Origin: an uncultured Bacilli bacterium
GTDB lineage: Bacteria; Bacillota_I; Bacilli_A; RFN20; CAG-449
DNA length: 64,000 nt
Direction of reading: 5' to 3'
Assembly: GCA_947632435.1 (NCBI GenBank)
Contig: CANRPC010000001.1
Coordinates: 1 to 64,000 of the forward strand
The position numbers were made by a program, and so were the translations under genes. The notes below the pieces were generated by a model, which was not told where the DNA came from, made no database searches, and saw only the letters and a list, made by a program, of their open reading frames with translations. How positions within the stretch are numbered: the first letter of the stretch is position 1; every line of letters begins with the position of its first letter. Of the stretch, positions 10,194-22,396 are shown in pieces.

Positions 10194-10282
10194 AAATCAC
10201 TGGCTAATAATTTTCTATTTACTTTCATTTCCCCAGTAAATGTGATATAATATAATAAAATTTAAATGAGTAGCAAATAGAG
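10194..10282 (+). promoter_or_regulatory. Promoter region of phosphorothioation operon
   Basis: agtaaatgtgaTATAATataataaa; same element is duplicated at 59495-59580. Confidence 0.55.
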
Positions 10283-12046
10283 GTGAATAATGTGCAGAAA
10301 TTTGTATGTAAAAATTGTGATAATTTAATTTGTGAAACTAGCACATGCCCTGTATGCGGAAATAGAGCTGATTTAATATCTACTGAAGTTTATTATTGTG
10401 ACAAATGTAATTCACCTCTTTTTTCTAATAGTTGTCCTATTTGTGGCTCCGAATGTAGAAAAGTAGGAACAGATTTAAGACCTGTGTTTGCAGATGAGCG
10501 ATTACTTCTTGAAGTGTTACTAAATAAACCATTTGAATTTGCTGAAAAATCATTATGGTGCACAGGGTCAAATAATTATTTATTAAATGGGAAAAAAATC
10601 AAAATTTCATTTTCTGAATTAAGAAAAAACGATCCTCAAGAAATTATAGACAAACTAAAAAAATATGAAAATGAAAATAGAAAATATATTGAAACTGATT
10701 TGACTAATAAGTTTATAAATTCTTTTATTAACTGTAATAAATTAAGATTAAATTTAATTACATCTGAGGCAATAGAATATATTAAAGAAATTTCCTCAAA
10801 ATATGATTTATCAAGCATTTTTGTTTCTTTTAGCGGAGGAAAAGACTCTACTGTAACAAGCAATTTGGTTGTTAGAGCTTTAGGAACTGAAAGTATTTTA
10901 CACATATATGGTGATACTACTTTAGAATATCCTACTTCTGCACAATATATTTCTGAATTCAAAAAAAGCTATCCTAAAACACCGCTATTAATCGCTAAAA
11001 ACACTGAACAAGATTTTAATAATTTATGTGAAGTTGTTGGTCCACCAAGCAGAGTAATGAGATGGTGTTGCACTATTTTTAAAACTGGAGCAATAACAAA
11101 AAAAATTGAACAATTATTTAAAAATAAAACTAAGCTTTTATCTTTTCAAGGAATTAGAAGAGCTGAATCTTCATCTAGAAGCAAGTATGATAGAGATACT
11201 GATAGCCCTAAAATTACTAAACAAAAAGTTTCATCTCCAATAATAGATTGGATGGACTTTGATGTTTGGTTATATATACTTGCAAATAAAATTCCATTTA
11301 ACTACGCTTATAGACAAGGATTTTCGAGAGTTGGTTGTTGGTGTTGTCCTAACAATAGTGGTTGGTCTGAATTTTTAGCTTCTATTTATATGAATCAACA
11401 ATACGTAAAGTTTAAAAATATTTTATATGATTTTGCAAAAAAAGTAGGTAAAGAAGATTGGAAAATATATGTGGATGAAGGTAAATGGAAAGCTAGACAA
11501 GGTGGAAATGGATTAGAACATAGTAAAAATGCGGTTGTCACATTTAAACCATGTGCTTTCGATGAAAATAGTATAAATTTTAGTTTATCAAAGGATATAG
11601 ATTCTACTATATATACTTTATTCAAACCTTTTGGAACATTGAATTTTGAAATTGGTAACAAAAGATTAGGTGAAGTATATGTTTTATCCAGAAACACTTC
11701 AGAGCCAATATTAAAATTAACTGGAAAAGTTGGAAAAAGAGAATTAAAAATTACTATTTTGAATGTTATTCCACCTTTTAAAAATTTTAAGCAAATTACC
11801 GAATTAATAAAAAATCAAATAACAAAATATCAAACATGTATTGGATGCACTTATTGTCAAAGTGTATGTAAATTTAATGCGTTAAAAGTAAACAATTTAA
11901 TGAAAGGAGAAGTTAGCAACAATTCCATCTCATATACAATAGATGAATCAAAATGTGTAGGGTGCCTTGAATGTGTTAAACATTTTGATGGAGGGTGCTA
12001 TATGAAAAAGGTATTGAGAACTAAACAGGGTGAATATAATGAATAA
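10283..12046 (+). CDS. PAPS-reductase-family PP-loop protein (DndC/SspD-like) with N-terminal zinc ribbons and C-terminal 2x[4Fe-4S] ferredoxin; alternative GTG start at 10292
   Basis: CxxC pairs (CKNC, CPVC, CDKC, CPIC), SFSGGKDST PP-loop, RWCCTIFK and GCWCCPN, CIGCTYCQSVCKFNA and CVGCLECVKHFDGGC. Confidence 0.85.
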   Translation: MNNVQKFVCKNCDNLICETSTCPVCGNRADLISTEVYYCDKCNSPLFSNSCPICGSECRKVGTDLRPVFADERLLLEVLLNKPFEFAEKSLWCTGSNNYLLNGKKIKISFSELRKNDPQEIIDKLKKYENENRKYIETDLTNKFINSFINCNKLRLNLITSEAIEYIKEISSKYDLSSIFVSFSGGKDSTVTSNLVVRALGTESILHIYGDTTLEYPTSAQYISEFKKSYPKTPLLIAKNTEQDFNNLCEVVGPPSRVMRWCCTIFKTGAITKKIEQLFKNKTKLLSFQGIRRAESSSRSKYDRDTDSPKITKQKVSSPIIDWMDFDVWLYILANKIPFNYAYRQGFSRVGCWCCPNNSGWSEFLASIYMNQQYVKFKNILYDFAKKVGKEDWKIYVDEGKWKARQGGNGLEHSKNAVVTFKPCAFDENSINFSLSKDIDSTIYTLFKPFGTLNFEIGNKRLGEVYVLSRNTSEPILKLTGKVGKRELKITILNVIPPFKNFKQITELIKNQITKYQTCIGCTYCQSVCKFNALKVNNLMKGEVSNNSISYTIDESKCVGCLECVKHFDGGCYMKKVLRTKQGEYNE

Positions 12047-12899
12047 TACTCTTACATTAAAATTTAAAAAAAATGAAAGCTTCTATTTAAGAGATGGTTG
12101 GTTAGAAAAAGCAATAAATTTTATCTATGAAAATAATCAAGTAAATATTTTTAGTAAAAATAATGGAATTTCTATATTAGGTATAGGATCAAACATGGTA
12201 AAGAGTTTAAAGTATTGGTTACAAGCTTCTAATGTTATTGTTGCCTCAAATACAAAAACAGAATTATCTTTGTTTGGAAATCTTTTATATAAATATGATA
12301 GATATTTAGAAGATAATTTTTCAATTTTTTTAATTCACTATAATTTAGTGAAAAACATGAAAGAATGTCCACTATTTTATGGATTATTTAATATGGATAT
12401 TAAAACATTTACAAAAAATGATTTTGTTACATTAATTAATGCATATTTTCAAACTTTAGACTTAAACGTAAAGAAAGAATACATAGAAGAAGATACGGGG
12501 GTTTTGTTAAAATCTTATATTAACGAAAACAAAGTTGATAATCCTGAAGATAATTATGTCTGTCCATTGTCATATCTTAGACTACTTGAAAAGAAAGATG
12601 ATAAGTATATTAAAACAAAACCATTATATCAAGGTTTGTCATATTTAATAATTTATATTTGTTTGCAAGATTTGTATGAAGGTAATTCATTTAATATAGA
12701 AGATTCAATTGATGAAATTAATTCGCCGATGAAAATTTTTAATTTAGATAAAAATATGTATTTACAATATTTAGAAGAGATGAAAAAAAATCAATTGATT
12801 ACTATTAATAAAACTGCTGGACTAAATACAGTTTATTTTGATAAGAAATTGAATTTAGAAGATATTTTTAGAGAATATTTTAAGGGGGAAATGATTTAA
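12030..12899 (+). CDS. DUF4007 family protein (SspB-like)
   Basis: ESFYLRDGWLEKAI... LGIGSNMVKSLKYWLQASNVI motif typical of DUF4007; overlaps upstream gene. Confidence 0.8.
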   Translation: MNIMNNTLTLKFKKNESFYLRDGWLEKAINFIYENNQVNIFSKNNGISILGIGSNMVKSLKYWLQASNVIVASNTKTELSLFGNLLYKYDRYLEDNFSIFLIHYNLVKNMKECPLFYGLFNMDIKTFTKNDFVTLINAYFQTLDLNVKKEYIEEDTGVLLKSYINENKVDNPEDNYVCPLSYLRLLEKKDDKYIKTKPLYQGLSYLIIYICLQDLYEGNSFNIEDSIDEINSPMKIFNLDKNMYLQYLEEMKKNQLITINKTAGLNTVYFDKKLNLEDIFREYFKGEMI

Positions 12900-21817: not shown

Positions 21818-22348
21818 ATGGCAAAAAAATCAATGTTTCAAGAAGATTACTTATTTAAAGGAACTCAAAGAGATAAAGTAATTTCTTTAACATCAAAAAT
21901 TGATACTGATTCTAATAGCCAAATTTTCACTTCGGCAGTTGAATTATTTGTATTTGCATCTTTAGTTGGTGCTCTAAAAAAGAGAAAAGCCGAGCCCGAA
22001 AAAGATAATAGTAGGACACTTAGAATAATGGCTAATCAATTTTATAATCATAGTAATGAATTAAAATTAGCATTTAAATTTGTATTATTGACAAGTGAAA
22101 TTGATAATCCTGATCCTGTTGAAAGATTAAATAAAACATTTAGAAATCCTGAAACAGATGATAACTATACTTTATTTGAAAAGTATATGTTGGGTGGATT
22201 AGATGAATTATATGAAAATTTAATTTTAGATACTAATTTACGATATGAGGATTATTTAACAAGTATTAATCAAATGCTTGAAAAATTTGCAATAAACGAT
22301 GAACCTGATGATGATATTGAAGTCGATAATAGTGATTTTAAATTCTAA
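21818..22348 (+). CDS. Hypothetical protein, last gene of phosphorothioation operon
   Basis: 176 aa ORF with RBS immediately after the DndD-like gene; acidic C-terminus. Confidence 0.6.
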   Translation: MAKKSMFQEDYLFKGTQRDKVISLTSKIDTDSNSQIFTSAVELFVFASLVGALKKRKAEPEKDNSRTLRIMANQFYNHSNELKLAFKFVLLTSEIDNPDPVERLNKTFRNPETDDNYTLFEKYMLGGLDELYENLILDTNLRYEDYLTSINQMLEKFAINDEPDDDIEVDNSDFKF

Positions 22349-22366
22349 TTAAAAAAAATTCAAACT

Positions 22367-22396
22367 AGATACTGAAATATTTCAGTATCTTTTTTA
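22367..22396 (+). terminator. Terminator of phosphorothioation operon
   Basis: AGATACTGAAATATTTCAGTATCTtttttt near-perfect palindrome plus T-run. Confidence 0.9.

Follow-up and report, generated by a model that had tools for sequence, protein, structure and literature searches.

An operon of an uncultured Bacilli bacterium that probably joins an Ssp-type DNA phosphorothioation module to a PbeABCD-type effector

The operon and its mobile setting

The stretch of DNA analysed here (the window, 64,000 nucleotides) corresponds to C1:1-64000, the beginning of contig CANRPC010000001.1 from the genome of an uncultured, gut-type Bacilli bacterium (1.68 Mb, 98% complete, 42 contigs). It contains an operon of eight co-directional open reading frames (ORFs) on the + strand, at 10283-22348, which overlap or abut with spacings of -20 to +4 bp (Table 1). 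Profile searches, together with position in the case of gene 6, identify genes 1-4 as an Ssp module for DNA phosphorothioation (PT), in the order sspD-B-C-A, and genes 5-8 as pbeA-B-C-D, an antiviral module that is PT-dependent in the archaeal system DndCDEA-PbeABCD. Together, the Ssp-type module (SspD-B-C-A) and the Pbe-type module (PbeA-B-C-D) probably constitute a complete PT modification-restriction operon. A previous sequence-only reading had described a hybrid Ssp/Dnd-like PT operon, a call which the PADLOC and Pfam searches support and resolve into an Ssp-type and a Pbe-type half.

Table 1. Features of the operon and of the mobile element in which it resides
Feature	Position	Strand	Description
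sspD	10283-12046	+	PP-loop PAPS-reductase-like sulfurtransferase; N-terminal Cys-rich region, C-terminal 4Fe-4S ferredoxin domain
sspB	12030-12899	+	DUF4007 DNA-binding/nickase-type subunit
sspC	12899-16330	+	AAA+ (Orc/Cdc6-BrxC-like) ATPase
sspA	16335-17465	+	Cysteine desulfurase (SufS-like)
pbeA	17468-19675	+	PLD (HKD) nuclease fused to SF2 helicase
pbeB slot	19659-19847	+	62-aa small protein between pbeA and pbeC
pbeC	19828-21816	+	CxC zinc-hook ABC ATPase
pbeD	21818-22348	+	Putative DndE-like protein, 176 aa
Extended -10 element TGATATAAT	10243-10251	+	Read in the sequence; conserved in the G340 copy; ~40 bp before GTG10292
Intrinsic terminator	22367-22396	+	Stem 10 bp, loop 4 nt (22367-22390), plus T run
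Integrative conjugative element	9895-47380	.	37.5 kb; inserted in spoVD-like penicillin-binding protein gene; GG core at both ends
spoVD-like gene halves	8398 to about 9896-9912, and 47379-47802		Flank the integrative conjugative element
Transferred unit	10144-22350	+	97.3% DNA identity to G340:C4:95862-108068, different chromosomal context

The DUF4007 protein is confirmed as SspB by sequence and predicted fold. It matches PF13182 (2.5e-62) and the PADLOC SspB model (2.3e-45), its family profile recovers the solved SspB 6JUF from the PDB (E 6.6e-31), and its AlphaFold2 (AF2) model (pLDDT 90.6) matches 6LB9/6JUF (E 5.6e-15, TM 0.80). The adjoining ATPase is recognized by the PADLOC SspC model (6.9e-87, 290 bits, versus 81 bits for the best BrxC model) and holds the nucleotide motifs GPYGKGKS (Walker A) and FIVFDE (Walker B). 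The desulfurase matches PF00266 (Aminotran_5, 2.2e-75) as well as the PADLOC models SspA (6.2e-37) and DndA (2.5e-36), with the catalytic Cys within RTGYHC and the pyridoxal phosphate Lys within AGHK. In SspD, PF01507 (1.4e-31) is accompanied by a Fer4 domain. The SspB fold, an SspC next to SspB, a PP-loop SspD, and a desulfurase SspA that define an Ssp module are all present. Among the PADLOC models, SspD scores best with BrxP (8e-85), followed by SspD (8e-11) and DndC (9e-11), and part of the SspD proteins have been reported to hold the same Fer4 arrangement as BrxP of BREX type 4 (PMC12839542). On this basis, the protein, which had correctly been described as a PAPS-reductase-like PP-loop protein, is assigned to the 4Fe-4S subset common to BREX type 4 BrxP.

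PbeA is recognized with PADLOC PbeA (6.1e-228) and TIGR04095 (1.5e-152), contains PLDc_2 and ResIII domains, and conserves the motifs HxK-x5-D...GSxN, GTGKT, DEVH, and QRRGR. PbeC had been named a DndD-like SMC ATPase; it is indeed an ABC ATPase, although of the CxC zinc-hook type, as it matches PADLOC PbeC at 1.6e-95 versus 1.9e-23 for DndD. Its hook reads CICG (residues 342-345), and CxCG is found in 26/26 related loci, the ABC signature being too variable in these sister loci for a simple pattern. The two small proteins left unnamed by the same reading can be placed as the PbeB slot (62 aa) and as PbeD, a putative DndE-like protein (176 aa). The 62-aa protein matches no family in searches with Pfam-type, PADLOC, or TIGR models and aligns weakly (14 bits) with PbeB of genome G195; its assignment is made solely by position, its identity being too weak for hidden Markov models (HMMs), and in 27/27 typed Pbe loci an ORF of 47-92 aa lies directly against pbeC. 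PbeD matches TIGR04062 (dnd_assoc_4) at 5.2e-5, which is weaker than the curated cut-off. The top Foldseek matches of its AF2 model (pLDDT 85) are DndE structures 4LRV/5WTU (probability 0.60-0.90, TMt 0.58-0.64, non-significant E ~0.5), fold neighbours consistent with the work that reannotated PbeD as a DndE cognate (PMC10853773).

The Dnd modification core (DndC/DndD/DndE) was not found in the operon, where the PP-loop protein has only its 9e-11 match to DndC and the ABC ATPase is PbeC rather than DndD. The reported lack of an SspE-like gene also holds, HMM searches having detected no SspE (GmrSD) or SspF/G/H gene within 10283-22348; SspFGH membership was rejected on these searches. The effector half is therefore non-canonical, as had been suspected, and its four genes are identifiable as PbeABCD. 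The only GmrSD_N match in the genome lies outside the operon (G000:C7:78247-78897, locus L154), in a protein of ~604 aa closer to the HEC-06/Orf5 models than to SspE.

The sizes of proteins 2-8 (289, 1143, 376, 735, 62, 662, and 176 aa) agree with those given earlier. SspD would have 587 aa if translated from GTG10283 and 584 aa from GTG10292, and the latter is the likely start because a 98%-identical orthologue and a ribosome-binding site point there. The operon probably runs from promoter to terminator, as proposed, with eight ORFs between a visible extended -10 element and an intrinsic terminator. The former is probably the operon promoter element, although a consensus promoter scan did not include TGATATAAT (10243-10251) among the elements listed. 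In the region 9700-24000 no Rfam match was obtained at E<=1.

The operon was also said to be borne by an integrative conjugative element (ICE), and this description is sustained by the defined ends of the element and by genes at 23999-47232 for a MobL relaxase, a type IV coupling protein, a VirB4/TraG-like ATPase, and two large serine recombinases. The ends were placed at a GG core of 2 bp (9895-9896 and 47379-47380), and joining the flanks at the common GG yields one 639-aa frame of a penicillin-binding protein (PBP) that reads through the KTGTGQ motif. The same spoVD-like gene is uninterrupted in seven relatives (639-667 aa). The insertion falls on the KTG-motif codons and lies within the gene, so the host is left with a truncated PBP unless the element excises. 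An ICE protein at 37341-38378 weakly matches the N-terminal domain of the anti-restriction factor ArdC. A blastn comparison with the genome G340 gave a single match of 12,213 columns whose two ends coincide with the edges of the operon, and the rest of the ICE was not found within the 97.7 kb of G340 compared. As the G340 cassette lacks the ICE, the eight genes move as a unit and not solely with this element. Plasmid records match PbeA in 140 cases and SspD in 25, counted separately.

Recurrence of the pairing and the position after sspA

The association of both modules is not restricted to this genome but is seen again in many Bacillota. A sample of 349 Bacilli genomes, reduced to 348 by excluding the genome studied here, was searched for DUF4007 and PbeA in the same set. 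Since TIGR04095 gave matches through its helicase part in 14/14 control genomes at E<=0.001, only those with E<1e-80 were counted. DUF4007 exceeded the cut-off in 8 genomes, PbeA was found in 15, and both in 5, where 0.34 would be expected by chance (p 4e-6). In all five, DUF4007 and pbeA lie on one contig within about 7 kb. Among 393 Clostridia genomes, in which PbeA was sought by alignment with a strict cut-off, the two markers appeared in 5 and 6 genomes, respectively, and jointly in 2, in both cases adjacent (p 0.002). Because the sampled genomes are related, these p-values serve as a guide only. The order sspD-B-C-A-pbeA-B-C-D is found in G340, G305, G193, G311 (where the contig ends within pbeC), and G646, while G415 shows sspB-C-D-A-pbeA-C-D and G195 shows pbeA-B-C-D-sspB-C-D with an SspD of 272 aa. 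The existence of the last two arrangements indicates either repeated origins of the association or its rearrangement. In G195, the gene directly upstream of pbeABCD-sspBCD encodes a protein of 1141 aa whose C-terminal domain is of the AAA+ type (L041, 2875-6300).

Sister loci were collected by scanning GTDB genomes with an SspD alignment, and the best 80 of the 378 relatives were analysed, so that the proportions given here are not prevalences. Nearly all belong to Bacilli and Clostridia, with one from Spirochaetaceae and one labelled Chloroflexi, and the order sspD-B-C-A holds wherever the sequence suffices. The 68 loci that reach sspA, and could be typed, carry after it PbeABCD (30), a helicase-GHKL ATPase-PLD set (11), SspFGH (9), GmrSD with PbeBCD (8), GmrSD (5), PbeBCD only (1), or unknown genes (4). 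In the 30 Pbe loci the SGGKDS and CxxCxxCxxxC motifs of SspD and the HKD pattern of PbeA (HxK-x5-D...GSxN) are kept without exception. Eight loci (L088, L099, L100, L101, L102, L107, L112, L128) hold a GmrSD nuclease in the PbeA position, followed by PbeC and, where the sequence extends, by PbeB/PbeD. In another series (L046/L077, L067, L072, L073, L076, L079, L116, L120, L129, L132, L135), sspDBCA precedes a helicase, a GHKL ATPase with weak similarity to MzaB, and a PLD nuclease. From its gene content and position, this set is a candidate for a further PT effector module, which to our knowledge is not among the described Ssp effectors.

The effector also changes among close relatives. When the effectors are mapped as labels on a tree of 81 SspD sequences (IQ-TREE), at least 20 changes are required (minimum possible 5, shuffled mean 31.8); for the Pbe label, 12 changes are already forced by the starred branches taken by themselves. 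Close pairs with unlike effectors keep DNA similarity only through sspA, as in L122 (Pbe) and L126 (SspFGH), which share 74.5% identity over 7.3 kb, ending inside sspA. Distances correlate among the modification proteins (Spearman 0.63-0.85), and those of PbeA with those of PbeC (0.81), while the values across the junction are lower (0.25-0.52). The divergence of PbeA/PbeC tracks that of SspB/SspC (partial rho 0.42-0.52) and not that of SspD/SspA (-0.26 to -0.16), which fits a co-adaptation to the target motif, as SspB and SspC are the DNA-side subunits that would be expected to be tracked if both halves read one motif.

Relation to known systems and alternative explanations

Described Ssp effectors are SspE and SspFGH, while the described partner of Pbe is Dnd (or methylation). 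Here the restriction half is identifiable as the known PbeABCD, and what is unusual is therefore the pairing and not the parts. The closest known system on the effector side is DndCDEA-PbeABCD from Haloterrigena jeotgali A29 (PMC6459918), also called the CxC ABC ATPase-DndE system (PMC10853773), with four restriction genes of the same order, sizes, and domains: a PLD-helicase, a protein of about 62-66 aa, a CxC ABC ATPase, and a protein of about 150-176 aa (DndE-like, in this operon putatively so). It differs in that its partner is Dnd, with PT at GATC, in contrast to the Ssp module without dndC/D/E found here. On the modification side, SspABCD-SspE (PMC9646914) and SspABCD-SspFGH (PMC8092258) share SspB, SspC, SspA, and a PP-loop SspD with this operon, and sister sspDBCA loci carry SspFGH or GmrSD effectors. 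The operon itself is not a standard SspFGH locus, a possibility that the sequence-only reading had raised, and its effector is PbeABCD. Furthermore, its SspD of about 580 aa, with a C-terminal 4Fe-4S domain and an N-terminal Cys-rich region, differs from the roughly 270-aa type of G195 and G130. A full-text literature search, with preprints and subscription papers outside its scope, returned no paper describing the SspBCD-PbeABCD pairing; Figure 3 of PMC7464106 gives the number of genomes in which pbe occurs together with PT genes (dnd or ssp), not their adjacency.

The operon might alternatively derive from a BREX type 4 system (BrxP/BrxC/cysteine desulfurase) through loss of PglZ and BrxL and acquisition of Pbe, in which case it would act by a BREX-like replication block instead of working as Ssp. 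The far better score of SspD with BrxP than with the SspD or DndC models is what this origin would predict, and BREX type 4 (BrxP-BrxC-PglZ-BrxL) likewise has a Fer4 PAPS reductase of this kind, DUF4007, and BrxC, to which a cysteine desulfurase is often added (PMC12839542). Nevertheless, DUF4007 is here a separate gene of the SspB type, SspB obtains 153 bits with the Ssp model versus 25 with BrxP, SspC is likewise far closer to Ssp than to BrxC, the effector is Pbe, and profile searches found neither PglZ nor BrxL in the operon. BREX type 4 membership was rejected on the absence of these two genes and the Ssp-like SspB/SspC, and we consider the derivation from such a system unlikely. The PglZ of the genome belongs to a pglX-type (methylation) BREX at C1:100 kb, about 80-90 kb from the operon. 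Both views share the same chemistry, and hence the difference between them is mostly one of ancestry. That other BREX operon (L143, G000:C1:100000-119900) encodes brxB, brxC, pglX, pglZ, and brxL at 273-14425, with partial pglX pieces (202, 267, and 311 aa) around a 352-aa protein matching PADLOC PDC-S05; its pglX is possibly phase-variable through recombinase action.

It is very improbable that the two halves are mere neighbours, with sspDBCA producing PT for another purpose (epigenetic or redox) and pbeABCD guarding against something else. The frequent exchange of effectors and the only moderate distance correlation across modules are compatible with such independence, as is the fact that 320/553 pbeAC pairs lack dndCD (PMC6459918). 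However, sspA and pbeA are separated by 2 bp, the slot after sspA holds known PT-linked effectors in sister loci, both modules occur together in three gene arrangements, and all eight genes have been transferred as one unit. In favour of a PT modification-restriction operon, the sspDBCA cassette carries SspFGH in other loci, and the dependence of SspFGH on Ssp PT has been demonstrated (PMC8092258). Even less credible is a role of the modification genes in a sulfur pathway unrelated to DNA, such as tRNA thiolation or cofactor assembly. General sulfur metabolism also makes use of PAPS-reductase/ferredoxin and SufS-like desulfurase domains, but DUF4007/SspB, for which the solved SspB was matched, and SspC are families specific for DNA modification, and a restriction-type module directly follows the modification genes in most typed sister loci.

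Several points weigh against a PT modification-restriction operon as depicted here. The analysis shows directly which genes are present, that their motifs are intact, that the DUF4007 protein has the SspB fold, that the pairing recurs, and that evolution proceeds by modules, while for systems combining an SspD-Fer4 with Pbe, the PT, its motif, and phage defence are reached by analogy. Known SspABCD members introduce single-stranded PT at 5'-CpsCA-3', and the motif and strandedness of Vibrio cyclitrophicus SspABCD need not apply because this SspD is nearer to BREX-4 BrxP than to Vibrio SspD. The assignments of PbeD and PbeB come from weak scores, position, and fold. The correlation test can be biased towards SspB and SspC, as these two change more rapidly than SspD and SspA, and the label counts on the tree and the distance correlations describe the data and are no proof of function. 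The nuclease step of PbeA is disputed, since Xiong 2019 saw no Pbe cleavage. A nuclease role is nonetheless favoured, because a GmrSD-family nuclease replaces PbeA in the eight loci mentioned above and the HKD pattern is invariably intact.

Proposed mechanism and significance

It is postulated that the cassette probably tags the DNA of its host cell with sulfur and blocks phage DNA that lacks the mark. The scheme is drawn from work on SspABCD (PMC8092258, PMC9646914) and PbeABCD (PMC6459918) and from domain analysis (PMC10853773), and through it we infer the sulfur in DNA, its motif and single-strandedness, the PT-dependence of Pbe, cutting, and phage defence. SspA would draw sulfur from cysteine and pass it to the Fe-S PP-loop enzyme SspD. 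The SspC ATPase ring would move SspB, which would bind and probably nick one strand at a short motif, allowing SspD to install sulfur at the site chosen by SspB/SspC; a fraction of the host sites would thus be marked, with PT serving as the self mark. PbeC (the CxC ABC ATPase) and PbeD (DndE-like), coupled or restrained by PbeB, may search DNA for this motif and sense whether it carries sulfur, and upon encountering unmarked incoming DNA would license PbeA, which would translocate and arrest replication, probably through cleavage.

PbeABCD is PT-dependent when paired with DndCDEA, blocks replication without visible degradation, and retains weak resistance after deletion of pbeA (PMC6459918). 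This residual resistance is consistent with a PbeBCD core whose enzyme can be exchanged, and the GmrSD-PbeBCD loci have just this appearance. A broader proposal, which we advance tentatively and hold somewhat short of even, is that PbeB-C-D is a PT-reading core that takes different nucleases (PbeA or SspE-superfamily GmrSD) and different PT writers (Dnd or Ssp), sspDBCA being a general PT writer whose effector is repeatedly swapped after sspA.

A survey has reported that 83.9% of sspBCD clusters lack a recognised restriction partner (PMC8092258), and the Ssp-Pbe pairing fills part of the partner gaps of both sspBCD and pbeAC in Bacillota. Pbe has been held to cut DNA (PMC10853773) or only to block replication (PMC6459918), a dispute that Ssp-Pbe loci make testable. 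If the broader proposal is true, Pbe would be able to read PT of the Ssp type, which is possibly single-stranded, and three kinds of system (SspE-like, Pbe, and SspFGH) would become parts of one exchangeable set.

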